This document shows positions 9,639 through 27,758 of a stretch of DNA of 64,000 bases, in pieces. Below the pieces are notes generated by a model. It ran no database searches, was not told the origin of the DNA, and worked only from the letters and a program-made list of their open reading frames with translations. Made by a program: the position numbers and the translations under genes. Within the stretch, counting starts at the first letter, position 1. Every line of letters begins with the position of its first letter. This DNA comes from Flaviflexus huanghaiensis (GTDB taxonomy: Bacteria; Actinomycetota; Actinomycetes; Actinomycetales; Actinomycetaceae): contig NZ_JACFAK010000002.1 in the NCBI RefSeq assembly GCF_014118685.1, forward strand, positions 124,001 through 188,000, written 5' to 3'.

Positions 9639-9640
9639 CG

Positions 9641-10984: not shown

Positions 10985-11000
10985 GGGAGCAACTCAGCAC

Positions 11001-12041: not shown

Positions 12042-12339
12042 GTCGTCCAGGGTACTCGGTCAAGAACACCCAGCAGGAACCAGAAGAATGAGGCCCGGAT
12101 TAGTGAGGGCGCTCAAGTTCTTGTGAGTGGCGTCGTGGTCGTTTTCCCGTTCTTCCCGACCTGTGACGAGACTGCCCATCGCCGCGATAGCGTGTCCATC
12201 CGAATCGGTCGTTCTCGTCGTTGGCAGCCTCCGGACGCACGCCTCTCTTCATCCACGATTCGTGCTTCACATTCTCCTGCATCGACGCCCGCGTGCTCGC
12301 CTTTTCGGAATTACCAGCTCGGGGTAGCCCCATATCTAG
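12042..12339. other. Intergenic region without recognisable gene
   Basis: About 300 nt lie between the divergent GNAT-MazG and reductase genes. The minus-strand ORF through it shows no family signature or ribosome-binding site and runs into the next gene. I see nothing functional except the promoter/operator at its right edge. Confidence 0.5.
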
Positions 12340-12354
12340 TTTAGTTGCTAAAGT
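12340..12354 (+). promoter_or_regulatory. Likely MarR operator overlapping a leaderless -10
   Basis: The palindrome TTTAG-TTG-CTAAA (12340-12352) overlaps TAAAGT (12349-12354), which sits 6 nt before the ATG at 12361 and fits the -10 of a leaderless transcript. An AT-rich palindrome over the -10 of an operon that encodes a MarR repressor suggests autoregulation. This is an inference from position and symmetry. Confidence 0.6.
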
Positions 12355-12360
12355 AGTTAC

Positions 12361-13002
12361 ATGGTTTCTACTATCGCAGTTTTTGGAGCGACTGGTCGCA
12401 CGGGCCGTCGAGTCGTCGAGCGGGCTCTCTCCCACGGGTTGGCCGTACGAGTTTTGGCTCGCGACCCCGCGAAGATTGTGTTAGCCGATGACCGGCTCAC
12501 GGTGATCGAGGGCGATGTGCTGGATGCGTCGTCGGTGGATAAGACGGTGGCGGGTGCCGAGGCGGTCGTGAGCGTTATCGGCCATGTCAAGGGCTCTCCT
12601 GCCACGTTGCAGGCCGATGGCACAACATTCATTGTGAACGCAATGCAACGCCACGGGGTCAGCCGAATCATCACCCTCTCCGGCGGTGGGCTCCGAGCCG
12701 AGGGCAAGGACAAGCCGAAGATGGCCGACCGCATGATCCGGGGACTGTTGAAGGTACTGTCGGGCCGAGTTCTTGCCGATGCTGAGGCGCACGTGGACGT
12801 TCTCAAGCGCAGCGGCCTCGAGTGGACGGTCGTTCGGGGACCGCGGTTGACTGAGGAGCCAGGGACGGGCTCATACCGGGTCGGGTGGGTCGGCGGGGAC
12901 AGCACGACAAAGCTCAGCCGGGATGACTTAGCGGACTTCATTCTTACCCAGATCGATGATCGTCAGTACGTGTGGGACATGCCGTTCGTGAGTGGCCGAT
13001 GA
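12361..13002 (+). CDS. NAD(P)-binding, NmrA-like/atypical SDR reductase
   Basis: The 213-residue protein begins with the Rossmann motif A-V-F-G-A-T-G-R-T-G-R-R-V-V and shows further atypical-SDR elements: V-x-x-L-A-R-D-P-A-K, D-V-x-D-x-x-S-V and S-V-I-G-H. No catalytic Y-x-x-x-K is evident, as in NmrA-like and NAD(P)H-sensing members. It is the first gene of a three-gene unit with overlapping stops and starts around a MarR regulator. A role in sensing or detoxifying quinones or electrophiles is plausible but inferred. Confidence 0.85.
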   Translation: MVSTIAVFGATGRTGRRVVERALSHGLAVRVLARDPAKIVLADDRLTVIEGDVLDASSVDKTVAGAEAVVSVIGHVKGSPATLQADGTTFIVNAMQRHGVSRIITLSGGGLRAEGKDKPKMADRMIRGLLKVLSGRVLADAEAHVDVLKRSGLEWTVVRGPRLTEEPGTGSYRVGWVGGDSTTKLSRDDLADFILTQIDDRQYVWDMPFVSGR

Positions 13003-13442
13003 CGACCGACAGCAACCGTGCCGAGCTGATCAGGGAGATCCTCAGTGGGGTCACTGCCCTCGCTAAGGTCCTGTCAACGGAACAGCGACGACCGTTCGAG
13101 GGAAAGGTCCTGTCCAGGTCACAGCTCTTGGCGCTGTTTCTTCTTGCGCGCGTGCCGGCTGGTTTGACCCCTGGCCGACTCGCCGAGCTTCTCGATGTGA
13201 CACCGGGTGCGGTGACTCAGCTCATTGACGGTCTGCGCGCCGAAGGACACGTTGAGACCCAGGTGAGTCGTACAGATGCACGATCACGCATTGTTGTGCT
13301 GTCCGGTTCGGCGCACCAGGAGGTGGAGCGCTTCGAGACAGCCGTCGTGGCGCGTCTTCAAACCCGGTTCGCCGGCCTCACCGATGGAGAACTGGCATCT
13401 CTCGCCCACATGATGAATCGCATTACGACAGAGGACAGATGA
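12999..13442 (+). CDS. MarR family transcriptional regulator
   Basis: The 147-residue protein has the MarR winged helix: L-T-P-G-R-L-A-E-L-L-D-V-T-P-G-A-V-T-Q-L recognition region, then D-G-L-R-A-E-G-H-V and the D-A-R-S-R-I-V-V-L wing. The ATG at 12999 overlaps the preceding stop (ATGA) and is preferred to an in-frame start 27 nt upstream. It probably represses its own operon through the palindrome at 12340-12352, with release by a small ligand. Confidence 0.9.
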   Translation: MTTDSNRAELIREILSGVTALAKVLSTEQRRPFEGKVLSRSQLLALFLLARVPAGLTPGRLAELLDVTPGAVTQLIDGLRAEGHVETQVSRTDARSRIVVLSGSAHQEVERFETAVVARLQTRFAGLTDGELASLAHMMNRITTEDR

Positions 13443-14296
13443 TGAGCATTCTTGTGACCGGCGCAACCGGGACGGTTGGTGCCGCGGTGGCAGAATTCCT
13501 GCTCGACCGCGGAGCCAGCGTGGTCGGTGCTGTGCGCAACGACGCCGATGCGCTTCGCCTGCAAGCGGGCGTTGAGCCGCGGCGCTTCGACTACTCGATG
13601 TCACCGACCGAGCTCGATCAAGCCCTCGACGGATGTGACCGGCTTTTCCTCATGCGTCCCCCGGCAATCGCCGACGTGCACACCTACCTGTTCCCGACCA
13701 TTGATGCCGCCGTGCGCCGCGATATCCGACAGATCGTCTTTCTCTCCCTCCAGGGCGTTCAGTACAACCGCACGACCCCGCACTTCGCGGTTGAAGAATA
13801 TCTGAAAAGCTCTCGCGTACCTTTCACCTCACTGCGCCCAAACTTCTTCATGCAAAATCTCTCCACGACACACGCGGGCGAGATTCGCGAAATGGATGAG
13901 GTATTCGTTCCGGCCGGGCGTTCTTTCACTGCGTTTATCGACGCGCGAGACATCGGCCGCGTCGCTGCCGCTGTGCTTACCGAACCTCGTCACATCGGCA
14001 AGGCGTACACACTGTCCGGTGAACACAGTCTGAGCTACCGCAAGGTCGCCGATATTCTCAGTGACGTGCTCGGCCGCCGCATCCATTACCGGCGACCCAG
14101 CGAAAAGGACTACCTCACCCACCTGCGCGAGCAGGGCCAACCCGAGGACTACATTGCCGTTCAGCGAATGATCTACCGTCTCGTTCGCTTCAACGTGTCC
14201 GCGTTCCCCAATACCTCCGTAAGGCGCCTCACCGGACACCCGGCCACCACCTTCGCCGAGTTCGCACGGCGCGAGAGGGCCGCCTGGGAGTCCTAA
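13439..14296 (+). CDS. NmrA-like NAD(P)H-binding reductase
   Basis: The 285-residue protein starts with I-L-V-T-G-A-T-G-T-V-G-A-A-V, the extended Rossmann loop, followed by G-A-V-R and F-D-Y. It later has Y-L-K-S-S-R-V-P-F-T-S-L-R-P-N-F-F-M-Q-N, the signature of NmrA/QOR2-type reductases, and a Y-T-L-S-G motif near residue 190. It overlaps the MarR gene by 4 nt, so all three genes of the cassette are translationally coupled. Two paralogous reductases flanking a MarR gene suggest an inducible response to quinone or aldehyde stress; this is inference. Confidence 0.88.
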   Translation: MMSILVTGATGTVGAAVAEFLLDRGASVVGAVRNDADALRLQAGVEPRRFDYSMSPTELDQALDGCDRLFLMRPPAIADVHTYLFPTIDAAVRRDIRQIVFLSLQGVQYNRTTPHFAVEEYLKSSRVPFTSLRPNFFMQNLSTTHAGEIREMDEVFVPAGRSFTAFIDARDIGRVAAAVLTEPRHIGKAYTLSGEHSLSYRKVADILSDVLGRRIHYRRPSEKDYLTHLREQGQPEDYIAVQRMIYRLVRFNVSAFPNTSVRRLTGHPATTFAEFARRERAAWES

Positions 14297-14608
14297 AGCA
14301 CGCCACTGCTCCCGCGCACGCGACGGTGTGGCACTAACGTCGCATAGCGGAAGGCTCTCGTTGCTCCTGCAACCTCAAGCATCTGAGAAGAAGGAGCGGC
14401 CCCCCATTCGCGCGCGGAACCTTCGTCGCGGCTTGCTTGGGTTTGTGACGTCTCCCTAGATGCCCACTCAGAGATCGTTGCGCACATGAAGGTCGGGCCA
14501 TGAGCTCCGGAGCGGAGACATGGCGTTGATTGTCAAGTTCCAGGACGCGAGCTAGCCAAGGTCATCCTCGTCGCGAGAGGCAGAGAGAACAAACGGTGCT
14601 TTGCTCCC
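14297..14608. other. Intergenic region, no gene seen
   Basis: This 312-nt gap separates convergent genes (reductase on plus, nuoN on minus). Short ORFs on both strands show no recognisable family, and I find no strong terminator hairpin. Confidence 0.5.
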
Positions 14609-16012
14609 TCAGGAGAGGGCGGGCCAGGCGATCCCCGCCCCGATTCCGAGCACAAGCACCGCCACGGCAGAGGCAATGGCGGTTGCCGACGACCATGGTG
14701 TCGGCAGGAATTGACCCATCCCGTGCGAGGCGCGAGCCTCGCCGCTACGGTACACAGGTGCGATCCATCGCACGTAGTAGAACAGACTGACAACACTGTT
14801 GACGAACACGGCGATCGCGAGCCAAGCCACCCCGCCATCCCACGCTGCGGCCGCGGTCACGAGTTTCCCCACGAACACCGCTGTGGGTGGGGTGCCTACC
14901 AATGAAAGCAACAGCACGACCAACGCGGCTCCGAGCCACGGGCGCTCGCGGCCCAGGCCCCGAAACTCCTCCAGGTCCCGCAGCTCGGGGAAGGCGGTCG
15001 AAACTGCGAAGGCCCCGAGGTTCGTAAGGACGTAGGCGGCGAGGTAAAACAGTAGCGCAGGGAGGGCGAGGTCGCTTCGCGTGACAACCGCGAGGGGCAC
15101 AAGCAGGTAACCCACCTGGCTGACGGTAGACCAGCCGAGCAGACGGCGAGGATCGGACTGCCAGAATGCGGCAAGGTTCCCCAACGTCATGCTGACGACT
15201 GCGAGCAGTGCCACCAGGAGTGGCCAGGCCAACGTGGCGGGCATGATCTCGAGCACTCGATAGATGGCGATGAGAGCACCGACCTTCGGCACCGTAGTGA
15301 GGAAAGCCGCAACGGCTCCCCCCGCGCCCTGAGCGGCATCCGGAATCCAGAAGTGCCCCGGCACACCTCCCACCTTGAACATCAAGGCCATGACGACGCT
15401 GGCCGCACCCAGCCCCACGGCACCCGGGGGAGCCCCCGCGAGTTCTCGAGCCAACGGCCCATACAGGGTCGTGCCCGACACCCCATAGAGGACCGTTATT
15501 CCTCCGAGGAGGACGATGCCGAACAGAGCGCCGATGAGGTAGGCCTTCATCGTGGCCTCGGCCCCGTTGGGGGTGGAGCTGACGCCGATGAGGCCATAGA
15601 GGGGGATGCTGGAGAGTAAGAATCCGACCGCGACGATGAGTAGGTCGTTGGCGCCTGCGAGGATGAGTGTGCCTGCGGTGGAGAAGAGCAACAGTGCGTA
15701 GGTGTCACTCTCGCGAGGGGAGCCGGCGATCTCGTCGCTCGCGAGCGCAAGAACGATCAACGTTCCGAGCGGGGCGATGATCCTGGCGATAGCGGTGGCG
15801 TCGTCGATCGCGAAAGTCCCGCTCATCGCCTGCTGAGCGGGACCGAAGAGGCTGACCGCGCCGGCAATGGCTGCCCCGAGGCAGGCGATCGCTGCGATCA
15901 AGCGACTGACCCATTGTCTGGTTCGCGGGAGGAATGAGCCGCCGAGGAGCACCGCCATGCCGCCAAGGAAGATAGAGATTTCAGGCAACAGCAGCATCGG
16001 CCGCATGTCCAT
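14609..16012 (-). CDS. nuoN: NuoN-like antiporter subunit of a complex I membrane arm
   Basis: The 467-residue protein has about 14 membrane helices and the Nuo antiporter pattern: M-F-K-V-G-G-V-P-G-H-F-W-I-P-D-A (channel Lys), T-T-V-P-K-V-G and G-T-P-P-T-A-V-F-V-G-K-L. By eye the TM5 glutamate of E. coli NuoN (E133, before S-L-P-L-F-G) aligns with a leucine (L-L-S-S-I-P-L-Y-G). This would weaken the usual proton entry, but other acids could substitute. It is the last gene of the cluster, 6 nt after nuoM. Confidence 0.88.
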   Translation of the reverse strand: MDMRPMLLLPEISIFLGGMAVLLGGSFLPRTRQWVSRLIAAIACLGAAIAGAVSLFGPAQQAMSGTFAIDDATAIARIIAPLGTLIVLALASDEIAGSPRESDTYALLLFSTAGTLILAGANDLLIVAVGFLLSSIPLYGLIGVSSTPNGAEATMKAYLIGALFGIVLLGGITVLYGVSGTTLYGPLARELAGAPPGAVGLGAASVVMALMFKVGGVPGHFWIPDAAQGAGGAVAAFLTTVPKVGALIAIYRVLEIMPATLAWPLLVALLAVVSMTLGNLAAFWQSDPRRLLGWSTVSQVGYLLVPLAVVTRSDLALPALLFYLAAYVLTNLGAFAVSTAFPELRDLEEFRGLGRERPWLGAALVVLLLSLVGTPPTAVFVGKLVTAAAAWDGGVAWLAIAVFVNSVVSLFYYVRWIAPVYRSGEARASHGMGQFLPTPWSSATAIASAVAVLVLGIGAGIAWPALS

Positions 16013-16018
16013 GCCGAC

Positions 16019-17509
16019 CTACCTTCCAACCAGCTCGACGGCAGCCGCGGCAGCCGGTTCGATCATCTCGAGCAGTGGGCCGGGCAGGATCCCGATGACA
16101 ACCACGAGCGCAAGTAGCGGGACGATCGACCATGCCTCGTTGGGATGCAGATCGGCGAATTCGTCGGAGCTACCGCGGGTCTCTCCGGTGAGTAACGACT
16201 GTAACGCGCGCAGGAAGAGGGCGGCGGTGAGGAGAATACCGAGAACGGCGATCGCGGTGATTGGGCTGGCGGCGATGCTTCCGGTGAAGATCTGGAATTC
16301 CGCGATGAACCCGGAGAACCCGGGAAGTCCGAGCGAGGCGAATGCTCCTATCGCAAGGAGCGCAGCGAACCGTGGGGCTGGCGCAGCGAGGCCGCCGTAG
16401 TCGGACATGACGTAGCTACTGCGGCGCTGCCACAAGATCCCGGCGAGGAGAAATAGTGCACCGGTGATGAGGCCATGGCTGACCATCTGGGTCACAGCCC
16501 CCGAGACCGCGATCGATCTGGCCTCCACGGTATCGGCGGTGACGAGGCCGGCGGCGCCGAGCGCGACGAGAATGTAGCCCATGTGGTTGACAGAGGTGTA
16601 GGCGACCATCCGCTTAAAATTCGTTTGGGCGAGGGCGACAAGCGCGCCGTAGAGGGCAGAAATAATGCCCACGGCGATGATGATCCACGCCCAGGCCCGC
16701 CACGCGTCGGGCAACATTGGCATTGCGATCCGAACGAATCCGTACGTGCCCATCTTGAGTAACACCGCGGCAAGCACGGCGGAGCCGATCGCGGGTGCGT
16801 CGGTGTGGGCCGGGGGTAGCCACGTGTGGAAGGGCACGGTGGGGGTTTTGATCGCCAATCCCAGGACGATTGCAGCCAGCACCGCGCCTCCTACGAGCGG
16901 GTTATCACTCAGAGGCGGAGTCGCAGTGAGCTCAACCATGTCGAACGTATGCGGGGCTGCCCCGAGATACAGGCCGATGAAGCCGAGCAACAGGGCGAGC
17001 GAGCCGAGGAACGTGTAGAGGAAGAATTTCAGCGCCGAGCGTGCCGCATCCTTGTGCCCCCACCCGGCGATGACGAAATACATCCCGACGATCGACAGGT
17101 CGAAGAATACGAAGAACAGGATGAGATCCGCTGCGAGGAACACTCCGGTGCTCACGGACTGCAAGAAGAGGAATAGGGCGGCTTGGAGCCGGGGGAGGCG
17201 GGTGTCCCGGAGGGCGTAGATCGCGCACGCAAGGAAGATGACCGCGGTGAGAGCCACGAGCGGCAGCGAAAGCCCATCGACGCCCAGGTGATAGCTGCTA
17301 CCGATGCCTGGCATCCACTCGATGCGTTCTGAGAGCGCGCGTTCGCCAGGTGGGGGCGTCGTGTACATGCCCCATACGGTCGCGACAAGTATGACCTCAA
17401 GCCCCGCGGCGCCGACCCACGCCCAGCGTGCCGCAGCGTCACTGATCGCGGGCACGGCGACGAGCAACAGCGCTGCGGCCAAGGGGAACAGAATGATCAA
17501 CGAAAGCAC
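16019..17509 (-). CDS. nuoM: NuoM-like antiporter subunit of a complex I membrane arm
   Basis: The 496-residue protein has 13-14 membrane helices with clear NuoM motifs: G-V-D-G-L-S-L-P-L, K-T-P-T-V-P-F-H-T-W-L-P-P-A-H-T-D-A-P (channel Lys), L-L-K-M-G-T-Y-G and G-L-P-G-F-S-G-F. The TM5 glutamate (E144 in E. coli) aligns with Asp in F-F-D-L-S-I-V-G-M-Y-F, a conservative change. The gene lies 3 nt after nuoL. Subunit M transports protons in the membrane arm. Confidence 0.93.
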   Translation of the reverse strand: MLSLIILFPLAAALLLVAVPAISDAAARWAWVGAAGLEVILVATVWGMYTTPPPGERALSERIEWMPGIGSSYHLGVDGLSLPLVALTAVIFLACAIYALRDTRLPRLQAALFLFLQSVSTGVFLAADLILFFVFFDLSIVGMYFVIAGWGHKDAARSALKFFLYTFLGSLALLLGFIGLYLGAAPHTFDMVELTATPPLSDNPLVGGAVLAAIVLGLAIKTPTVPFHTWLPPAHTDAPAIGSAVLAAVLLKMGTYGFVRIAMPMLPDAWRAWAWIIIAVGIISALYGALVALAQTNFKRMVAYTSVNHMGYILVALGAAGLVTADTVEARSIAVSGAVTQMVSHGLITGALFLLAGILWQRRSSYVMSDYGGLAAPAPRFAALLAIGAFASLGLPGFSGFIAEFQIFTGSIAASPITAIAVLGILLTAALFLRALQSLLTGETRGSSDEFADLHPNEAWSIVPLLALVVVIGILPGPLLEMIEPAAAAAVELVGR

Positions 17510-17512
17510 GCG

Positions 17513-19402
17513 TCACCTCACGAATACAAGTAGCAGGACCCCGACCGCAAAGACTGCGATCGACGCAATGTAGTAGTGATGGAGTTGCCCGGTCTGCGGT
17601 TCCCGGGCGTAACGTCCGAGCCTGCGAAACCCTGTTGCGACGCCGCGCACGACACCGTCGAAGCCGTGGTCGTCCGCGAATGCGCTGACATGTGCGGCCC
17701 GTACTGTCGTCGTTGCGACCCCTGAGATGCCGCGGCTCAAGCCGTGGTCGTCGAAGCGAGCGAGGCCGTCGGAGGATCGGAGCGTACCAGCGGCCGTCTC
17801 GGTGATCGCCCGATCGATACCTCGCTCGTCGAATTGCGCCAGGCGTTCGGCGAGCCGAAGGTTAGGGTTCACGACGAGGAGGTGCGTCGCCGTTCCCAGG
17901 CCCAGCCAGTTGCCCAGCCAGCGCGGTTCCGGCGTCCCGCGCCACCAGACCAGGGCGAGAATGACCACCGCGACCGCGGCAGAGAGCGTCAACTCCCAAG
18001 CGGTGGGGCTTATTAGTGGCTCACCCAGCAAACCCGCAACTGTCGCGCTTAACGGGGGGAGCGCAATCATCCCGAGCCCGGCGGCACCCACGGCAAGCAC
18101 AACAAGTGGCGCCTGCGCCGACGCACTGGGCGCGACGGTCTCCGGCTTCGCTTCCGCCTGCCAGATGATTCGAAGGATCTTGCCCGCATAGGCCGCAGAT
18201 AGCATCGCGGCGGCCAGTCCTGTGGCGTACAGCGCCGGCGAGACATCGAGTGCGGCGCCGAGAATGGCGTCTTTTGTCGCCCACAGCGCCAATGGCGCAA
18301 TACCGGCGAGGGAAAGGGCACTCGTCGTCGCTGCGAGACCGGTGATCCGCCATCGCCGAGCCACGCCGCGAAGGTCCGCTAATCTCTTGCTACCGACGGT
18401 GGTGAGCCAGATGCCGGCGGCGAGGAACAACGCCGCCTTCGTTGCGGCGTGGCCGATGAGGTGAGTCGCACCGCCGGTCACGCCTCCGACGCCCGCCGCG
18501 AGAACAATGAACCCGAGTTGGGCGGAGGTGGAAGCTGCGAGCAGTTGCTTGAGGTCGCGTTGCGCGAGGGCAACGAGTCCCAGCAGCACGGCCGTTGCCG
18601 CGCCGATCCACGCTGCTGTCATTCCCGCCCATCCGGTCGCGGCCAGGAGCGGCTGAACCCGCAGTAGCAGGTAACCGCCCAACGCCACCATCGCTGCCGA
18701 ATGCAGGAGCGCGCTGACCGCGCTCGGGCCCTCCATCGCACGCGAGATCCAGTACGAGAACGGTAGCTGGGCGGCCTTGCCCAGCGCGGCGAGAAGGAAC
18801 CCGGCAGCCATGACATGGCGCCACCCCGAGCTCCCGGCGGTCAGATTGTCAAGGCTCAGGCCTGCGCCGCTCGCCAATGCCGCTCCCGCCGCGACGTAGA
18901 GCCCCAGGTCTGCGGTTCGGGTCGTGAGGAATGCGGTCATACCGGCAGAGACTCTGTCCTTATCGCGCCACCAGAACCCGATCAGCGCATACGAGGTTGC
19001 TCCCATGATCTCCCATGCGAATAGCAATGTTGGGATCGTCTCGGCGGTCGCGGTGATGAGTCCTGCAGAAACAAAAATCAGCATGAATCCGTAGAAGCGC
19101 CCGCGTGCCGCTCGGATCTCCGACGAGGCGAAGACGAGCACGAGGAGGGCGACGATCGCGATGGTCGGCACCATGAGCGCTGCCAGCCCGTCTACCCCTA
19201 GCGCGAATGACGTACCGGCGACAAACGGGTAGCCGATCCGGGGCTGATCCACCGCGACGACAACCGCTAAGAGAGCTGTGACCGTCGCCGTTGCCAGCGA
19301 GACGGCGACGACGGCCCGTTCCCCCCGGGAGACTGCGAGCACGGAGCCGACTCCGGCGGGTAGCAACACGAGCAAGGCGAGGGCGATCTGGCTCATGAGC
19401 AC
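17513..19402 (-). CDS. nuoL: NuoL-like antiporter subunit of a complex I membrane arm
   Basis: The 629-residue protein has about 16 membrane helices. Conserved features are F-A-W-E-I-M-G-A-T-S-Y (TM5 Glu), L-G-K-A-A-Q-L-P-F (channel Lys), G-P-S-A-V-S-A-L-L-H-S-A, G-H-A-A-T-K-A-A-L-F-L and A-T-K-D-A-I-L. The key charged residues of the proton path are therefore kept. The C-terminal extension contains three D-H-G-x-x-(R/G) units in a hydrophilic stretch before a last helix (T-G-Q-L-H-H-Y-Y), which corresponds to the lateral-helix region. It starts 1 nt after the nuoK stop. Confidence 0.93.
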   Translation of the reverse strand: MLMSQIALALLVLLPAGVGSVLAVSRGERAVVAVSLATATVTALLAVVVAVDQPRIGYPFVAGTSFALGVDGLAALMVPTIAIVALLVLVFASSEIRAARGRFYGFMLIFVSAGLITATAETIPTLLFAWEIMGATSYALIGFWWRDKDRVSAGMTAFLTTRTADLGLYVAAGAALASGAGLSLDNLTAGSSGWRHVMAAGFLLAALGKAAQLPFSYWISRAMEGPSAVSALLHSAAMVALGGYLLLRVQPLLAATGWAGMTAAWIGAATAVLLGLVALAQRDLKQLLAASTSAQLGFIVLAAGVGGVTGGATHLIGHAATKAALFLAAGIWLTTVGSKRLADLRGVARRWRITGLAATTSALSLAGIAPLALWATKDAILGAALDVSPALYATGLAAAMLSAAYAGKILRIIWQAEAKPETVAPSASAQAPLVVLAVGAAGLGMIALPPLSATVAGLLGEPLISPTAWELTLSAAVAVVILALVWWRGTPEPRWLGNWLGLGTATHLLVVNPNLRLAERLAQFDERGIDRAITETAAGTLRSSDGLARFDDHGLSRGISGVATTTVRAAHVSAFADDHGFDGVVRGVATGFRRLGRYAREPQTGQLHHYYIASIAVFAVGVLLLVFVR

Positions 19403-19403
19403 A

Positions 19404-19706
19404 TCACCGGGAGAGATCCGTTGCCATGTCGGTCATGTCCGTCTCTTTGGTTCTATGCAGGTGCGTTGCGACGGCAAAGCCCATCGCCATTTCCACCGTC
19501 ATCGCGGCGATGATGACCATCAACAGCACCTGTCCGTCCGGGTTGGGCGCGAGGAACCACCAGAACGCTCCGGCGGCGAGGATGAGTCCGTTGATCATGA
19601 GCTCCAGACCCATCATGACCATGACGACGACCTGCTGAGAGATCGCAACGTAGAGACCCACCGCGAAGAGTCCCGCGGCGATAAGCAGGGATGCCTCCAA
19701 TGTCAT
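19404..19706 (-). CDS. nuoK: NuoK-like subunit
   Basis: The 100-residue protein has three membrane helices. It carries both glutamates used in proton transfer: G-L-E-L-M-I-N-G (E36-type) and A-A-M-T-V-E-M-A-M-G (E72-type). Length and topology match NuoK. Its ATG overlaps the nuoJ stop by 4 nt. The last residues (H-R-T-K-E-T-D-M-T-D-M) extend slightly past the usual end. Confidence 0.93.
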   Translation of the reverse strand: MTLEASLLIAAGLFAVGLYVAISQQVVVMVMMGLELMINGLILAAGAFWWFLAPNPDGQVLLMVIIAAMTVEMAMGFAVATHLHRTKETDMTDMATDLSR

Positions 19707-20272
19707 CGCCCAACACCTCCACCCTGCGGATCATCGGCTGGACGGCGGCGGAAGTCATCGCCCAGGCGGTCATAACGGGTGCGGTGGGCCGCTAGCACGA
19801 TGCCGGAGACGATCGTCGCAATCATGATGGGGCTGATAACCACCATGACGAGCATCTTCGTGCCCATGAGCGTCTCACCCAGGCTCGCTGTCACATCCCC
19901 CGAAGGTTGCCCTCGCCGTGTGGGCCAATCGGTCAGCAAGATCGCAGCCGCGAGCATCGCGAAGACGGATATGGATATGACGAGCGCGGTCTTCTTGGAG
20001 TGCACCATGCTCATCGGCATGAGCGCGGGGTTCATCCCCATGAACATGACCATGTATACGGCCATGATCGCCATCTCCATGATCATCATGAGGATCGTCA
20101 TCACCCCGACGTAGTTCTGTTGCAGGAACAGGACCTGTACACCGACCGCGACGAACGATAACGCCAGCGCATAACTCGCTCGCGCCATCGAATCGACCCA
20201 GAACACAGCGGCGCCGCTGAGGATTGCCACCACTCCCAGCACCCAGAACACGATATCGATCAGCACGCTCAT
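19703..20272 (-). CDS. nuoJ: NuoJ-like subunit with methionine-rich core
   Basis: The 189-residue protein starts at the ATG overlapping the nuoH stop, not at an in-frame start 171 nt upstream. It has about five membrane helices and the NuoJ features Q-N-Y-V-G-V-M-T-I-L in the central helix. A run of 32 residues beginning M-T-I-L-M-M-I-M contains 13 methionines and ends in H-S-K-K, which is unusual for NuoJ. Some of this is hydrophobic helix packing, but the density also recalls metal-handling membrane proteins. It is co-translated with nuoK. Confidence 0.88.
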   Translation of the reverse strand: MSVLIDIVFWVLGVVAILSGAAVFWVDSMARASYALALSFVAVGVQVLFLQQNYVGVMTILMMIMEMAIMAVYMVMFMGMNPALMPMSMVHSKKTALVISISVFAMLAAAILLTDWPTRRGQPSGDVTASLGETLMGTKMLVMVVISPIMIATIVSGIVLAAHRTRYDRLGDDFRRRPADDPQGGGVGR

Positions 20273-21186
20273 CCCCTCCCCACACCGATTGCGGCAACAA
20301 TGAACAACTGCACCAACGCCGCGGGCAACAGGACCAACCAGCCCACTTCCATGAACTCGTCCGGCCGCAGCACCGGGATCCGGCGGCGCGCCCATACGAG
20401 CGCAGCCAGCACAATGGCCGTCTTCACCAGTGTCCACGCCCATCCCGGAAGTAACGGTCCCGCCCCTCCCCCGAGGAACATTGGCACCGCGAATGCGGCA
20501 CCGGCGGCCAACAATGCATACTGCCCGCCCTGGAACATGAGCCGGTCGACTCCGGAAAGCTCGGCACGGACCCCGCCGGCTATGTCAGTACCCAGCGGGG
20601 CGGAGAACGGGCCGGAAACCGAGAACGCGACGACGGCCGCGAGGTAGATGACGAAAGCGACCGGCATCCATACCCCGTACCACAGCCCGCCCTGCGAGCC
20701 GATGACGGAGACGTTGAGGCTACTGGCCGCGACGGCCGGGGTGGCGATCGCGAACATGAGGGGCAGCTCGTACGCGAGTGCGAGGGCGAGAAAACGGTAG
20801 CCGCCCACGAGCGACAGCGCAGAGTTCGCACCCCACCCCGCGAGCCAGACGAACGCCCAGACAGCGACGTCCATCGCGTTGAACCACACGACACCGACGT
20901 CGAGGTCTAAAAGTACCGACGTGCCCAACGGCACGACGGCCACCATGAGCACCGCGGCGAGCACCAGGCCTGATACCCCAATTCGCCACAGCAAACGGTC
21001 GGCCTTGAGCAGGGTGTGGCGGCGTTGGCGCAACAACCGAGCGGCCTCACCCGCCGGTCGCATGACCCCGTGTTTGCCCACACCCCCTGAGTTGAGAATT
21101 CCGTCATGGGCTGCGGCGGCGAACGCGAACCCGCCAAGAAGCGGTAGCGCAGCAAGAGCCCACAGCGGAGCGACCTGTTCAGGCAT
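20269..21186 (-). CDS. nuoH: NuoH-like subunit with degenerate quinone-site loops
   Basis: The 305-residue protein has about eight membrane helices and keeps A-Y-E-L-P-L in the E-channel helix and the V-L-R-P-D-E-F-M-E-V-G-W end. Two hallmark NuoH loops are altered. The R-x-G-P-N-R-x-G-P region is replaced by G-I-L-N-S-G-G-V-G-K-H-G, and the acidic F-D-L-P-E-A-E-x-E-L-V segment reads F-S-A-P-L-G-T-D-I-A-G-G. Both loops contact quinone in normal complex I. The ATG at 21186 overlaps the preceding gene by 8 nt and is preferred to the long N-terminal extension. Confidence 0.88.
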   Translation of the reverse strand: MPEQVAPLWALAALPLLGGFAFAAAAHDGILNSGGVGKHGVMRPAGEAARLLRQRRHTLLKADRLLWRIGVSGLVLAAVLMVAVVPLGTSVLLDLDVGVVWFNAMDVAVWAFVWLAGWGANSALSLVGGYRFLALALAYELPLMFAIATPAVAASSLNVSVIGSQGGLWYGVWMPVAFVIYLAAVVAFSVSGPFSAPLGTDIAGGVRAELSGVDRLMFQGGQYALLAAGAAFAVPMFLGGGAGPLLPGWAWTLVKTAIVLAALVWARRRIPVLRPDEFMEVGWLVLLPAALVQLFIVAAIGVGRG

Positions 21187-22291
21187 GGGTCGCCCTCTGT
21201 TCTGTGTCGCTGGCACGCAACCGCTGCAGGTCCAGGCTCGCGACAATGAGGCGTGCCGCAGCGAGGTCGACACCAGTGATGAGCTCCGCCAACTCTTCCG
21301 GCGTCGCCGGACCAAAAAGATCTACCTCCTCGTCGCCGTGCGCACGTTGGAGCGTGCCGATCAGCCGGTCATAAGCATCTAGGCCTGCCGAGGTTCCGAG
21401 TCCGCGTAGCGACCACCGCAGAATTCGAGAGCGCCGTATTTGCCGGTCAAGCCGAGCGAAACTGATGTCGGCGTCAGGATCATCATCAAGAAGCGCATCA
21501 CGAACCATCCGAGCCCGCGCGACAGCATCCTCCCAGCCCGCTAGTGCGAGCAGGGAGGCAACATCGTCAAGCCGTCGCGCCCGCATCGGAGATGTTCTGG
21601 GCTCAGGTCGTGTGTCGAGCAGTTCGGCGTGAGCACCGACAATGACGTCGCCCTGCAAAGAACACCGCACGACCAACCCCGCGGCCCAGTGCGAGAGCAC
21701 TGGGCCCAGCGCTAGATGGAGGACATCCATTTCTAGACCGTCGCGGTCAGGACCCCCCTCCGCGAGCGCAAGCCCACCAGGGGCCATCTCCATGTCCCCG
21801 TGGTCCATATCCCCGTGGTCCATGTCCCCGTGGGCCATGTCCCCGTGGTCCATGTCGCCGTGGTCCATATCCCCGTGGTCTGTATGCGCGTCATCGGCCC
21901 CGCCGCTATGGTCGTGATCCTCCGCCTTCTCAAGCAAATCCGTGATCTCGTCGCGGTGGGATGCATCCCGGTGCTGGTGAGTGGTGTCTGCTAGGAGTGT
22001 CGTTGCCTGGGAGATGCGGGAACGCACATCCTCACCTGGAACGAGGTCGACCCGGGCTCGTGGGCCGGGTAGCTGCTCCCACGCCAGATCCACAGCCTGT
22101 GCCATCTGTTGCCCAACACGCCCGCAGACGATCATAATGTCGGCATCTGAAGGTGAGTCCGCGAGCCGTAGGCCCAGGCGCAACGCGACGCGTTCGGCCT
22201 CCACCCGCAAACGCCACTCGCCGGGAATCTCCACTAGTAGCACGTGCGCGTGCCGGGCTGCGAGACGCGCAATCGCTGTGTTTAAACCCAT
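21179..22291 (-). CDS. Degenerate NuoB/NuoD-like protein with His-Met-Asp repeat region
   Basis: This 370-residue protein lies between nuoA and nuoH, exactly where nuoB, C and D normally stand. Residues 1-110 resemble the NuoB flavodoxin-like core (H-V-L-L-V-E-I-P, D-A-D-I-M-I-V-C-G-R-V-G-Q-Q-M-A) but all four N2 cluster cysteine positions are lost; only two Cys occur in the whole protein. About residues 130-167 hold D-H and six x-H-G-D-M units in tandem. Residues 185-225 (L-A-L-G-P-V-L-S-H-W-A-A-G-L) resemble the start of NuoD, and the rest is helical. It may be a structural stand-in for the Q-module, or a metal-responsive partner. The family call is inference. Confidence 0.6.
   Translation of the reverse strand: MGLNTAIARLAARHAHVLLVEIPGEWRLRVEAERVALRLGLRLADSPSDADIMIVCGRVGQQMAQAVDLAWEQLPGPRARVDLVPGEDVRSRISQATTLLADTTHQHRDASHRDEITDLLEKAEDHDHSGGADDAHTDHGDMDHGDMDHGDMAHGDMDHGDMDHGDMEMAPGGLALAEGGPDRDGLEMDVLHLALGPVLSHWAAGLVVRCSLQGDVIVGAHAELLDTRPEPRTSPMRARRLDDVASLLALAGWEDAVARARMVRDALLDDDPDADISFARLDRQIRRSRILRWSLRGLGTSAGLDAYDRLIGTLQRAHGDEEVDLFGPATPEELAELITGVDLAAARLIVASLDLQRLRASDTEQRATHA
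21791..21880 (-). repeat. Six tandem 15-bp units encoding x-H-G-D-M
   Basis: On the plus strand six consecutive 15-bp units of the form CATGTCCCCGTGGTC run without interruption; two units read CATAT and two have other single-base changes. They are in frame with the NuoB/D-like gene and encode D/A-H-G-D-M repeats. Copy number could vary by slippage. Confidence 0.9.
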
Positions 22292-22626
22292 CGAAATGCC
22301 CCTTCACGCCAGGCCCAGACGACGGCTGCAAATAGCGCTCCGAGGAAGAGGAACATCTCAATGACCGCGGACCATCCAACGTCTGCCACGACGACGGCCC
22401 ACGGGTACATGAACAGCATTTCGACGTCGAAGGCGAGGAACACCAGGGTCGCAACATACCAGCGCACATGATATCGGGATAGGGCGTGCTCCTGCGGCAA
22501 CCAGCCGGACTGGAAAGGAAGGCTGATACGAGGACCTTGACCGACTGTGACAATTCGGTGGAGCAGAGAGAGGCCGAGAACGAGACCACCGACCCCCAGG
22601 ACGAGAACGACGACGGCAGTGAACAT
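22282..22626 (-). CDS. nuoA: NuoA-like subunit
   Basis: The 114-residue protein has three membrane helices and the NuoA signature: F-Q-S-G-W-L-P, R-Y-H-V-R-W-Y-V-A-T-L-V-F-L-A-F-D-V-E-M-L-F-M-Y-P-W. The ATG at 22626 is preferred over one 57 nt upstream because an AGAGGAG ribosome-binding site precedes it and translation begins at the first helix. It is the first gene of the cluster and its end overlaps the NuoB/D-like gene by 10 nt. Confidence 0.92.
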   Translation of the reverse strand: MFTAVVVLVLGVGGLVLGLSLLHRIVTVGQGPRISLPFQSGWLPQEHALSRYHVRWYVATLVFLAFDVEMLFMYPWAVVVADVGWSAVIEMFLFLGALFAAVVWAWREGAFRWV

Positions 22627-23221
22627 GAGGCTCCTCTCTGCGATGAAACGTCTCCCGACCAAACTCCGCCAGGCATGTGTCAATCGCCAAGCGGAGCTTT
22701 GGTCGTTCGCCGGCTAGCTATGGGCGATATGTGACTCCTGCGATTCGATTTACGAGTGTCATTGGTCATGCAGTGCCGCAGTGGTTGCTTGACACCCATG
22801 CCAAAGCGACACAATATTTCACCGATCATCACATAATCTCGTCGGCTATGCTCGGTGGGGTTTCAACTCAGCACGTCAAACCTCTATGAGATGTTCGGTT
22901 GGAGTTCCTCCGAACCTACTCAAAGTGCGTGAGCGTGTGACGCGACATAAGCCACGGCATTCGTTGACTCGCCACGAGTAACCATGGACGGGTGACGTTC
23001 GTTCCGGCTCGGCGTGTTCTTAGCGTGGCAGATCGCTTTCGACGGGTGAAGGATCTCCATGGGTCTGAAGCACTCATGTCCAGGCGCGCGGAATCGCAGA
23101 GCGGCGTCGACTCACGGTCATCCAGCGATCGATGTCACACCACCGCACGAGCCCCAAGTTGGCCTGTACCGGCTCCCTCGTGATAAATTCTTATCTGTTG
23201 CCACGGCTTCGGTTGTGACAC
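22627..23221. other. Gene-poor region upstream of nuoA and tRNA-Leu
   Basis: About 595 nt without a supported gene. Short plus-strand ORFs show no family features. The nuoA promoter must lie at the left edge (minus strand). A TTGACA hexamer is present at 22678-22683 (minus) but I found no matching -10. A small hairpin (GGAG-TTC-CTCC) lies near 22900. Confidence 0.5.
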
Positions 23222-23306
23222 GCGCGGGTGGCGGAATAGGCAGACGCGCTAGCTTGAGGTGCTAGTCCACGGATAGTGGGTGGGGGTTCAAGTCCCCCTC
23301 CGCGCA
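23222..23306 (+). tRNA. tRNA-Leu (anticodon GAG)
   Basis: An 85-nt class II tRNA. Acceptor stem GCGCGGG / TCCGCGC, anticodon stem CTAGC / GCTAG around the loop TTGAGGT (anticodon GAG, reading CUC/CUU), a long variable arm, and T-arm GGGGG-TTCAAGT-CCCCC. The discriminator base is A and CCA is not encoded. A strong terminator follows 8 nt later. Confidence 0.96.
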
Positions 23307-23313
23307 CGGTAGG

Positions 23314-23350
23314 AAACGGCGAGATACCAATGAAAGGTGTCTCGCCGTTT
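23314..23350 (+). terminator. Terminator of tRNA-Leu
   Basis: A 15-bp stem AAACGGCGAGATACC / GGTGTCTCGCCGTTT (one T-G wobble) with a 7-nt loop follows the tRNA and is followed by CTCGTCTT. Confidence 0.88.
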
Positions 23351-23913
23351 CTCGTCTTACGATGCTCAACCGTATCTGGGACTCAGTTCTTTTCGATGCT
23401 TGGTCGGTACGGTGGATGAACTCCTACCCAGCAACCCTTTCCGCCCATGTGAAGTGTCTAGAGCGGGGGAACAGCTGAGAGGCTCGACGACGTGCTTCGC
23501 AACAAAGCACATGGTACTTGGGACATTCTGTATCTGTCTTGTGGTCGGTGGGCAGTGCGACAGCCGCAATGAAGAGCGTGTCGGCTCAGAAGCTACGACT
23601 CTGCTCGACACATCTTGCCTGCTAGGAGAGGACTTTCTCTGTGCTTGGGAGCGTCCGAAAAGGAAAGGACATATACGATTCATGGCGAGTGAGCTGTGGG
23701 TGCGTCCATGAGCGTGGGGCGCGGCGCCGCTCGTTTCGCGCACAGTGCAGAGACGTGTCCGTGTCTTTCGGCGATTTGATGAGCTCATGCTGAACGCGAC
23801 AGTTCAAGAGTCCGCGAATGTCACTGGTGGGAAAGCAATGAGGCGGTGAGCCGCACGTGTCTGCAAGGACATGCCAGGTGCGCGAGCTCGCGGTCATGAC
23901 CCAGCCAAGGAGG
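23351..23913. other. Gene-poor region
   Basis: About 560 nt between the tRNA terminator and the subtilase terminator. ORFs up to 140 codons exist on both strands but have no recognisable domain, no good ribosome-binding site and irregular composition. Possibly decayed sequence; nothing functional identified. Confidence 0.5.
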
Positions 23914-23944
23914 TGGCCCCTGCAGCGGTGTGCTACAGGGGCCA
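23914..23944 (-). terminator. Terminator of the subtilase gene
   Basis: A hairpin TGGCCCCTG / CAGGGGCCA, extended by AGC/GCT after one mismatch, lies 30 nt beyond the stop of the minus-strand protease gene. Confidence 0.8.
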
Positions 23945-23973
23945 ACGGTGTCGTCGAGAGCTAACGGAGTCTG

Positions 23974-26900
23974 TTAGCGCCGCAGACCAACTGAATCGAT
24001 CCCATCAGCGTTCCAGTCACCGACGATAACCTCGTCGCGTGCCCGGCCGAGGGTGTGCGACTTCTGTGCGCTACCCGAGACGAGCGAGTTCGCAACGTAG
24101 AAGGTCGTCCCACGACGGACCGTAATGGTGTCCTTGCCGTCGCCATCCCAGTCACCGACGAGCACAACGTCGTTTGCTCGTCCGTAGCTGAACGTCGTCG
24201 TGGCGTAGCCGCCAGTGAGCGTGTTGCGGACAAAGAAGGCATTGCCACGACGGACCGCGAACGTGTCCATGCCGTCACCATTCCAGTCACCTGAATAGAC
24301 CTGATCTCCGAGACGACCGTAATTGAACTCCTTCTCGGCATAGCCGCCCGTCAGAGCATTCTGGGCGTAGAACGTCGTGCCGCGGCGGACCGCGAACGTG
24401 TCCTTGCCGTCACCGTCCCAGTCACCAACGAGGACCTCGTCTTTCACGCGACCGTAGTTGAACTGGATCTCGGCGTTGCCGCCAAGTAGCTGGTTCTGGA
24501 CGTAGAAGGTATTGCCGCGGCGGACCGCGAGCGTGTCGACTCCATCGCCGTCCCAGTCACCGGCGTAGACCTGGTCGCCAGCGCGGCCGAAGGTGAACCA
24601 GTGGTCCGCGGGCGTCGTGAAGTCGTTGTAGAGGAGGAAGCCGTGGTTGACGTTCTCGTCGATTGAGCCATCGCCAGGTCCCGTACCAGGGACACCGTCA
24701 CGGTCAATCGTGAACGCCTCGGACGTCCACACCTCGACATCGTCAGGGTTATCGATGGAACCAACACCCTTAACGACGGTCACCTCGAGAATGTACGTGC
24801 TATCGAGAGCCTTGAGGAGCTGATCCGATTCAGCGGACTTCCGATATGTGCCATCCCAGGGGTAGACCTGAATGCCGGGCGCCGCACCTTCGCCATACGA
24901 CTCGTAAACGAGGTTGTAGTCGGGGCTCACAGGTGCGCCCTTCGTACCGTCAGCCTTCGCGTGGAAAGCCTCCATCTTCATGTAGGAGACGGGGTTCTCG
25001 AAGTGGATGACGGCGTAAGGTACGTCGCCATCCTCCATCGTGAAGACGAACTCGTCGGAATCCCACGAGTAGACGCCACCCGAGACGCACTCCTCATCAA
25101 CGAGCTTGTCGCACTCGTCAAGGAAGCCAAGAACCGGGGTCGGGTAGACGGGCTGGTTCGGGTCGGCGCCGATCTCCTCTTCCGTCCATCCATAGTCAGC
25201 CCACGTCCACTGATCCATGAACGCAACGTCGGTTTCGTAGTTACCCGCCATGCCCGCGTACGGCACGACATTAATGGGGAACTCACCGGCTGAATCGAGG
25301 AAGTAGATATGGCCCGAGTAGATCGCGCCAGGAAAGTCTGGCTCGGTGATCGTTGCGTTGACCGTGACCGTGCTACCAGCGGGGACCGTGACAGTTTCAG
25401 CAGAGAAGCTGACCTCGGCGAACGCGCCGTAGAACTTCGCGTATTGGTTGATGCCCCAGGTGGCCGGTGCCGGGTCATGGACCGGGGTGAGGGTCATCTC
25501 CTCCGTGCCGCGGTTCGTGATCGACAGGGTCGTCGTCTCGGATGGGCCTGTGTCTGCGTCAGCAAGACTGATTTCCGAAGGGGAGATCTGCGTGCCGATC
25601 CAGGAATTCACGACCGACCGCGGGATGTTGATCATGCCAGCACCCTGACGGTGGACCGGCTCAGAGGAGCCAAGTTCCGGAGCGACCGACCAAGGGATCG
25701 GATCTGCATTATTCTGCAGGTTGGTGAGAACCTGGCTCGGAGTTAGCTCAGGCGTGGTCTCAAGAAGGAGCGCTGCTGCACCCGCGACGTGGGGGGCGGC
25801 CATGGATGTGCCGGACGATGTCGCGTAGCCCGTCCCATCGTTGTCCGGCGAATCGAGAGGGTATGACGAATAGATGAGTCCGCCGGGAGCGGTGACCTGC
25901 GGCTTGATCGACAGATCGGCTGCAAGGCCGTAGGAAGAGAAGTCAGAGACAAGACCAGCGGTATCAACATCAGACACGACCATCTCGTCCGTCCACGTCA
26001 TCGTCGGCGCTTCCGCGTCTGCGATAGCGGCACGGATCGCGTCGCCGTCCGTTTGCAAGATCGTCACGACAGGAATGGTGATGGCAGTGGCGCCCTCAAC
26101 CGTGGCAGAGATGGCACCTGGCTGGTTGTTGTCGATGATGACACCAGCCGCGCCGGATTCTTGGGCAGCGAGCGCTTTGTAATGGAAGGAGATATCGCCA
26201 CGGCGAACGAGAACGACCTTGCCTTCGGCGCCCTCGATCGGAGCCCCTCCCGTCTCAGAGCCTTCAGGGTAGGCGATGATGTCGAATGTTGAGTTGTCCT
26301 TCGGCGGTAGCGGGGCTCCGCTCGCAGGGCTGTAGCCAATAAGCGCAGTATCCAATGCAGAGACGGTCAGCGCAGGCGCCTCGATGCGCCAGTTGTCGGC
26401 CGAGCCGACGGCGATGACTTTCTTTCCGGAGGCAGGAGCGCCGCCGGAGAAGATGCCGTCTTCGCCAGAGTTGCCCTGCGAAACGGTGACGACGACGCCC
26501 TTGTCGACAAGGTTATCGGCCGCGACAGCGGTCGGGTAATTCGGCCACGTCATGAACGATGCGCCGATCGACATGTTGACGACGTCGGCACCATCGGCAG
26601 CTGAGCGCTCCATGGCGTCGAGCATGACCTCTGACGTCGTCGAGCCGTCACACCCGAACACGCGGTAGGCGAGGATGTTCGCGCCCGGTGCGACGCCCGT
26701 GAAATCGGCCGACGGATCGTTGCCGGCTGCAATGCCGGCAACATGGGTGCCGTGACCGTTGCAGTCATCGGGATTCTCATCCGGTGCTGGAACAGGGTTG
26801 TACGCATCCGATGACGGGTCGGCGTTGAATGCATCGCCGACGAAATCGTAGCCGCCGATGATCCGTGCGCCATTACCTGTGACAGGTGACCAGGCCGTCA

Positions 26901-27519: not shown

Positions 27520-27746
27520 GTGTTCTCCTCAGTTTTTCTTCTAGGTCTCCGGCTGCAGCGTTGCAGCACAGATGCCCTGAGTATGGTCGATGCCACACGC
27601 TTACGCAGGTCAGAAACGCGGAATGAAACAAAGTGCCGTTCTCCTGATCGGAATTCGCACGACGATATTTCCCTCATGTGGCCTGCGGACATGGCGGTTC
27701 GTCAGTGCAGTCATCGTTAGACAGGCCGGTCGCTAGGCGGACAGGT

Positions 27747-27752
27747 TAGGCT
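27747..27752 (+). promoter_or_regulatory. -10 element of M20 peptidase gene (leaderless)
   Basis: TAGGCT ends 6 nt before the ATG at 27759, leaving no room for a ribosome-binding site. This fits a leaderless mRNA starting at the ATG. Confidence 0.6.
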
Positions 27753-27758
27753 AGCGAT

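Follow-up and report, generated by a model that had tools for sequence, protein, structure and literature searches.

A stretch of 64,000 nucleotides from Flaviflexus huanghaiensis (contig NZ_JACFAK010000002.1, positions 124,001 to 188,000; called the window below) carries at 14609-22626, on the minus strand, a cluster of eight complex I-like genes in which neighbours overlap or sit a few bases apart. The gene order is A-BD-H-J-K-L-M-N; A, H, J, K, L, M and N are named by Pfam and NCBIfam matches, and BD stands for a fusion of NuoB-like and NuoD-like parts. We propose that a membrane arm of the complex I type has here become a non-redox cation/proton transporter, for which proton-driven export of Cu(I) would be the likeliest task; taken as a whole we give this reading an even chance of being right. 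That the cluster is non-redox and linked to copper seems probable to us. For the narrower statement that Cu(I) itself would be moved in a proton-coupled manner the balance is about level.

Gene content, proton path and methionine ladder

A previous reading of the window from its letters alone (the sequence-only reading) had listed eight packed genes here, and all of these open reading frames (ORFs) are indeed present. It had also stated that nuoC, E, F, G and I are missing beside the cluster, and we likewise found no ORF for any of them adjoining it among the ORFs read in 11000-28000 (E, G and I without a family search). The search for further nuo genes in the genome (2.48 Mb, 97.8% complete), which that reading had suggested, brought to light a canonical set. 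Family searches place NuoD and NuoF at one site each genome-wide, both on contig C45, where ORFs for A, C, D, E, F, G, H, J, L, M and N could be named by reading (Pfam gives the same names for D, F and J) and where B and K were recovered by BLAST; a gap between the genes suggests that nuoI may be there as well. Because the canonical nuo genes sit on C45, this genome has the cluster in addition to complex I.

The product of the second gene, noted earlier as a NuoB/D-like oddity in the place of an intact nuoB or nuoD, has no match in Pfam. Its residues 38-78 match NuoB in NCBIfam with an E-value of 4.6e-6, which is weaker than the curated cut-off. An alignment of 57 BD rows (A1, which omits 22 of the 78 BD rows other than that of the window, 4 as partial and 18 to limit redundancy) was used as a profile and found NuoB chains in the PDB (best E 7.8e-7, positions 45-83). 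An AlphaFold2 model of BD has a mean pLDDT of 85 and low confidence at about residues 126-176 (pLDDT about 50); with this model Foldseek ranked the small subunit of formate hydrogenlyase (FHL) and NuoB chains on top, 3 matches having E <=0.001, and the N-terminal part of the model matches NuoB structurally. Residues 177-363 were aligned by VIA-align with the FHL large subunit and NuoD (top three Z 13.3, 13.2 and 13.1), the NuoD chain 8e9h_D giving Z 13.2 and an rmsd of 3.1 over 171 residues. Since the N-terminal part matches NuoB and residues 177-363 match NuoD, BD combines in a single chain a domain like NuoB with a shortened one like NuoD.

The electron-transfer sites of the two parent proteins were not found in BD. 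Cluster N2 in NuoB we take to be held by four Cys ligands, and the quinone site of NuoD to involve a His and a Tyr. The recurring cysteines of BD are Cys56 (94%), Cys210 (86%) and column 241 (66%; Leu in the window), there is no CC pair, and a distant member (L115) has one Cys in 430 aa. With so few cysteines recurring, and this one member having a single one, a four-Cys Fe-S site in BD is ruled out. Read by eye, the HPxxHG stretch of the genome's own NuoD is absent from BD.

For the membrane subunits we compared 46 cluster members with 13-14 canonical sequences including E. coli, whose numbering is used and whose residues are presumed to have their known functional roles. The earlier statement that the Lys and Glu residues of proton transfer in L, M and K are kept holds for the main residues (43-46 of 46) and more weakly for Glu144 and Lys173 of NuoM. 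In NuoL, Glu144, Lys229 and Lys342 are invariant (46/46) and Lys399 is found in 44/46; in NuoM, Lys265 and Glu407 occur in all 46 and Lys234 in 45, and position 144 is Glu in 13 members and Asp in 33. NuoK retains Glu36 throughout and Glu72 in 43 members, the other 3 having Asp. Glu81 of NuoA as well as Lys247 and Lys395 of NuoN are present in 46/46. NuoH is altered: Glu241 has become Arg in 41 members and other charged sites are changed too, with Glu228 staying in 44.

In NuoJ the gate tyrosine, Tyr59, is replaced by Met in 44/44 cluster members, the residue being Met63 of the cluster protein. Eleven Met (29, 62, 63, 67, 70, 74, 78, 80, 87, 89 and 140) together with Glu66 and His91 are fixed in the same 44 sequences, which span Actinomycetota and Pseudomonadota; two plasmid loci, L147 and L148, yielded no NuoJ row and lie outside the 44, and their NuoJ differs. 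None of the 11 ladder Met occurs in 39 of 44 canonical NuoJ sequences and one occurs in the remaining 5, where 30 of the canonical sequences are best PF00499 matches, a selection that favours ordinary NuoJ. Among 101 actinomycetotan targets 99 NuoJ rows were found, and 99/99 have the 11 Met; this larger set shares members with the 44, and one contig enters it twice. In NuoA, Met70 and Met73 are found in 46/46 cluster members versus 0/14 canonical ones and in 98/98 of the larger actinomycetotan set. The Met content is 9.2% in J (canonical 2.6%), 8.9% in K (4.7%) and 4.7% in A (2.1%) and is not enriched in H, L, M or N of the cluster; because the enrichment is confined to J, K and A, it is not a general composition effect.

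Met63, 67, 70, 74 and 78 lie on one face of a helix predicted at residues 53-78 of NuoJ (model with a mean pLDDT of 72). For the six fixed Met of the third transmembrane helix (TMH3), random sets were equally aligned in 3% of draws. Met-rich or Met-lined paths for Cu(I) are a feature of copper exporters such as P1B ATPases and CusA, and by analogy with this background the fixed Met of J, K and A would suit Cu(I).

A second His- and Met-rich element, of the MDHGxM type, links the two halves of BD. At least 5 His are found in this linker in 65/78 rows, the window included. In the family f21, which we infer to be the Rubrobacteraceae, Pfam's heavy-metal domain HMBD was found in the linker of 4/4 BD proteins scanned (E 5e-12 to 2e-27), and the same four proteins also match the NuoD family PF00346. 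Judging from this composition the linker may well bind metal. We had also compared His-rich stretches in BD with background ORFs, and this comparison was dropped since spurious frames in GC-rich DNA are His-rich as well.

Three plasmid loci deviate from the usual arrangement. L147 (Rhodopseudomonas BAL398 plasmid) and L148 (Methylobacterium fujisawaense plasmid) have A-H-J-K-L-M-N without BD, and in their NuoJ the loop that follows TMH3 contains a long insert rich in His and Met, as if the putative metal-binding part had been relocated to the end of the ladder. A DUF305 gene adjoins the cluster in L147 and lies ~5.5 kb from it in L148. In L149 (Pseudarthrobacter defluvii pA, 9266-10428) an IS3 transposase gene follows directly after a shortened BD gene, and this copy of the cluster looks interrupted.

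Distribution, selection and copper neighbourhood

Scanning genome contigs with BD yielded 119 relatives, and the best 80 were kept, all of them actinomycetotan by title. The survey of actinobacterial genomes that the sequence-only reading had called for thus yielded the exact order A-BD-H-J-K-L-M-N in 70/80 of these best loci. The other ten (3 without A, 2 with A alone, 2 ending after K and 3 doubled entries) are read, as a group and not case by case, as contig ends and split or duplicated ORFs. Searching 396 genomes drawn across Actinomycetota with the A1 profile gave 181 matches at E <=0.001 and 6 at E <1e-50; the weak matches listed mostly comprise the 40-residue NuoB motif only and are probably ordinary NuoB. 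At the 30 loci with the best A1 matches a NuoA-like ORF adjoins the match in all 30. In the 20 of these regions that were read, H-J-K-L-M-N follow in order in 20/20, and in 17/20 there is an ORF between A and H that BLAST matches to BD or to canonical NuoD.

The genome surveys cover Actinomycetota, and other phyla come in through plasmids. A tblastn search of plasmids found genes of the cluster in mycobacteria, Rhodococcus, Gordonia, Arthrobacter, Curtobacterium, Rubrobacter, Alphaproteobacteria and Halomonas. Most of the 361 plasmid records match the heavy-metal motif only, as P-type ATPases do, and BD accounts for about a dozen of the rows listed.

A NuoM tree calculated with a quick method separates the 46 cluster rows, by a branch with a support of 97, from the 13 canonical rows, 12 of which are from cluster-carrying genomes; the canonical NuoM of E. 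coli and the window genome's own have long branches. In 15 pairs of relatives, to which the window copy does not belong, dN/dS is mostly 0.05-0.5 (120 comparisons, minus BD of L121/L123). Values above 0.5 were found in near-identical pairs or, once, for BD (0.52). By these sequence comparisons the cluster is a conserved, mobile and selected system.

We read 14 plasmid regions, whose gene tables are incomplete, and in 9 of them genes clearly related to copper or heavy metals lie no more than ~14 kb from the cluster. In Arthrobacter FB24 a multicopper oxidase, DUF305 and a sulfocyanin-like protein are near the cluster. In Curtobacterium a metal-sensitive regulator, an HMA protein and a P-type ATPase come just before A, and on the Rubrobacter tropicus plasmid DUF305, a P-type ATPase, a metal-sensitive regulator and a copper-binding protein come directly before A on the same strand. 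M. avium has a P-type ATPase and an HMA protein on the strand opposite to the cluster. The remaining regions are those of Halomonas KO116 (CopC, CopD, multicopper oxidase, CopB), Roseovarius (CopB, multicopper oxidase), Nitratireductor (multicopper oxidase, CopD), Paracoccus (P-type ATPase) and Rhodopseudomonas (DUF305, CusA/CzcA-type pump).

A seed search for a core copper set (multicopper oxidase, CsoR, HMA and P-type ATPase) found such genes beside 46/80 and 13/20 loci. As one contig is shared by both sets (L054 = L126), these 59/100 rows amount to 58/99 distinct loci, two of which (L015 and L029) are from one genome. The seeds were drawn from plasmid loci of the same family, and the counts lean towards such islands. 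Core copper genes were found beside none of 13 canonical nuo loci, with control flanks of 58.5 kb in total versus 837 and 151 kb for the two sets of cluster loci. By genus or title group, counting title words where no genus is given, core copper neighbours occur in 21/34.

Two further analyses point in the same direction. In a genome-wide search of 30 genomes (the best A1 matches with E <=2.3e-11, plus G276; 13 belong to f21), CsoR lies within 10 kb of the cluster in 14, versus 0.41 expected from rounded genome sizes (P 5e-19 if independent); counted by family CsoR is nearby in 4/12, with a conservative P of 5e-4. Clustering the flanking proteins without seeds gave HMA (11 genera), DUF326 (11), which we take to be a copper-storage family, DUF305 (11) and CsoR (9) as some of the most widespread families; the list comprised 22 families, for 10 of which a representative was named, and several of the others resembled shadow reading frames. 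Core copper neighbours were also more frequent where the BD linker has at least 5 His (42/64 vs 2/13; Fisher p 0.0014, uncorrected for kinship).

Proposed mechanism and competing explanations

The cluster shares with complex I the homologous subunits A, H, J, K, L, M and N, remnants of B and D and the main proton residues of L, M and K. It differs from complex I, which has C, E, F, G and I, in that none of these adjoins it and BD has no Fe-S ligands; furthermore, NuoJ Tyr59 is Met and NuoN Glu133 is Leu, Val or Gln. The [NiFe] hydrogenase large subunit has paired CxxC metal ligands, and those of the energy-converting enzymes do not recur in BD. The cluster resembles Mrp antiporters in that these are non-redox and in that J, K, L and M/N have Mrp counterparts, and is distinguished by H, A, BD, three separate L/M/N subunits and Met instead of Glu706 (44/44). 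To our knowledge Mrp has no counterpart of NuoA. As described in a study of Mrp, the C-terminus of MrpA is homologous to NuoJ, Mrp is without NuoH, and MrpA Glu706 occupies the position of NuoJ Tyr59 on a tunnel proposed for outward Na+ translocation, the other Mrp subunits bringing protons in according to the same authors (PMC7419157). The sequence-only reading had called the cluster larger than Mrp by H, J and A, which is correct for H and A (and BD) and not for J.

The position of Mrp Glu706 is occupied by Met63 in the cluster NuoJ. We infer that the tasks are divided among the subunits as in Mrp, Cu(I) being the cation that is moved. Somewhat short of an even chance, we picture that metal transport has replaced electron transfer. 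L, M and N would pass protons inward as in complex I and Mrp, judging from their kept residues. BD, which descends from NuoB and NuoD and is without their Fe-S ligands, would be a scaffold and, as copper acceptor, would receive Cu(I) from the cytosol, and a cytosolic chaperone or the linker could hand Cu(I) over to the foot of the J ladder. By analogy, the proton influx through L, M and N would then drive Cu(I) outward through the Met-lined core of J, K and A. Copper exporters such as P1B ATPases and CusA often share genomic islands with the cluster but show no sequence kinship with it that we could see, and the cluster would use the proton gradient by way of a complex I arm. We know of no description of such a proton-driven Cu(I) exporter.

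If this is true, a complex I membrane arm can be coupled to work that is neither redox chemistry nor Na+/K+ transport, the cluster would be a natural test of energy transmission in the arm with an ion path through J, K and A traceable with copper, and plasmids of two phyla would carry a proton-driven Cu(I) exporter. It would also suggest a function for an operon listed since 2012 as a marine adaptation and make the cluster a candidate copper-resistance system, so far unrecognised, of Actinomycetota and Pseudomonadota.

Several observations weigh against copper export. Among the proton-transfer residues, NuoM Lys173 is kept in only 31/46 members, NuoN Lys217 in 37/46 and NuoN Glu133 in none (Leu/Val 44, Gln 2). 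L113, L115 and L122, which belong to deep clades, have neither a His-rich linker nor HMBD, and the Salinispora BD has one His in the linker stretch. Copper genes have zero seed matches in the 64 kb of the window, and the three CsoR places in its genome are all on other contigs. The signs of copper are weak or distant on the Ornithinimicrobium, Methylobacterium and Pseudarthrobacter plasmids, no copper gene was found in the Rhodococcus and Gordonia plasmid regions read, and core copper neighbours are found at 0/5 Salinispora loci. Eleven of the 14 cases with CsoR nearby are from f21 alone, and in 8/12 families there is none. For Kocuria flava S43 copD/czcD are reported from a genomic region apart from the nuo genes (PMC6002675). 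The copper genes may be co-cargo of islands; the counter-cases could reflect genomic relocation, another soft metal or such co-cargo.

One alternative is a copper-gated cation/proton antiporter which moves Na+, K+ or H+ as Mrp does and is only activated, so that ion balance is restored under copper stress, by copper on the linker and on J. The linker is sensor-like and missing in some members, the main proton-channel residues are kept, and J, K, L, M and N are homologous to Mrp subunits (PMC7419157). However, the 11 Met fixed in NuoJ, of which five form the TMH3 stripe, are beyond the needs of a sensor, and all 11 are present in Salinispora despite the lost linker. We regard this explanation as unlikely, although it is the strongest competitor of copper export.

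A partial operon nuoAHJKLMN is already in print as a proposed marine adaptation (PMC3314556, PMC6002675, PMC6676996, PMC8622039), and the order A-hypothetical-H-J-K-L-M-N is given for Salinispora, Kocuria and Streptomyces (PMC6676996, PMC3314556). These are the same genes in the same order as in the cluster, and the Salinispora and Kocuria loci that we fetched belong to the same family. In the accessible parts of these papers the second gene is hypothetical or uncounted and a seawater proton pump is proposed; neither the NuoB-NuoD nature of BD nor the Met ladder nor copper comes up there in connection with the operon. In the literature, mostly without subscription journals, we recognised no paper tying nuoAHJKLMN to copper, and the identity of BD, the Met pattern of NuoJ and the copper neighbourhood were not found in print. 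The sequence-only reading contained neither this prior literature nor the Met ladder nor the copper link, all of which have been added here.

On the published view the cluster would serve adaptation to the sea and to salt as an additional pump for protons or sodium, and its copper neighbours would be no more than island co-cargo. Penn and Jensen (2012) and later papers report the operon in marine actinomycetes (PMC3314556, PMC6002675, PMC6676996), and the obligate marine genus Salinispora has the cluster without core copper neighbours. A pump, however, requires an energy input and none is encoded, and neither the fixed NuoJ Met nor core copper neighbours in 21/34 groups are explained. In addition many of the lineages with the cluster, Mycobacterium and Nocardioides among them, are not evidently marine. 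We consider a pump of this kind rather improbable, and marine adaptation as the sole explanation was rejected in view of the many Mycobacterium and Nocardioides loci, judged without habitat statistics.

The sequence-only reading had left the choice between an unlinked electron partner and a non-redox transporter; this was the right alternative to pose, and the evidence favours the second. In the first case the cluster would be a redox pump supplied with electrons by the canonical complex I or by some other unlinked donor, and copper bound to the linker would serve as redox centre. Canonical nuo genes do coexist with the cluster here, and NuoF is present in 17/30 tested cluster genomes. On the other hand, all 13 f21 genomes have the cluster and none matches the NuoF domain PF10589. 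BD, with no CC pair and a single Cys in one member, does not have the Cys of an Fe-S site, the quinone-site sequence of NuoD, read by eye, is not kept, and the gate Tyr of NuoJ and several charged residues of NuoH are changed. We therefore favour a non-redox transporter, and a redox pump appears very improbable.

Two observations on complex I itself were made alongside. In f21, 23/23 tested genomes have NuoD (PF00346), and the main complex I of this family seems to be without the NADH module. At least two NuoJ matches are present in many of the Actinomycetota genomes listed for PF00499, and it seems common in this phylum to have a second operon of the complex I type.

Finally, the sequence-only reading had considered a canonical operon elsewhere with the cluster as its decayed duplicate; canonical nuo genes do exist on C45 and most electron-transfer parts are gone from the cluster, but decay into a functionless copy has next to no probability and was rejected in view of the kept gene order, the separate group in the NuoM tree and the purifying selection among relatives.

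Features of the window

Table 1. Genes and sequence elements of the cluster, in window positions
Feature	Position	Strand	Basis
nuoA-like, 114 aa	22282..22626	minus	Pfam PF00507 (on longer ORF), NCBIfam NuoA
NuoA Met70 and Met73, family-fixed	about 22408-22419	minus	alignment counts
BD, NuoB-NuoD fusion, 370 aa, without Fe-S ligands, no clear membrane helix	21179..22291	minus	
BD NuoB-like part, residues about 1-110, no CC pair	21962..22291	minus	
BD MDHGDM-repeat linker, residues about 126-176, putative metal-binding	21764..21916	minus	sequence, low pLDDT
BD shortened NuoD-like part, residues about 177-363	21203..21763	minus	VIA-align Z 13.2, mycobacterial NuoD
nuoH-like, 305 aa	20269..21186	minus	Pfam PF00146 (on longer ORF), NCBIfam
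nuoJ-like, 189 aa, 11 fixed Met, Glu66 and His91	19703..20272	minus	Pfam PF00499 (on longer ORF)
NuoJ Met ladder core, residues 62-91 (end of TMH3 and next loop)	20000..20089	minus	
nuoK-like, 100 aa; Glu36/Glu72 equivalents kept, extra Met29/31/69/73	19404..19706	minus	
nuoL-like, 629 aa, main proton-transfer residues kept	17513..19402	minus	Pfam/NCBIfam
nuoM-like, 496 aa, main proton-transfer residues kept	16019..17509	minus	Pfam/NCBIfam, NuoM tree
nuoN-like, 467 aa, Lys kept, Glu133 equivalent is Leu	14609..16012	minus	Pfam/NCBIfam

Upstream of the first gene of the cluster, at a distance of ~0.6 kb, there is a tRNA-Leu (gag) on the plus strand (window 23222-23307), which is a possible integration site. 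Further on, window 23974-27519 encodes a large protein that by reading is subtilase-like and has GDWDGDG-type repeats towards its C-terminus.

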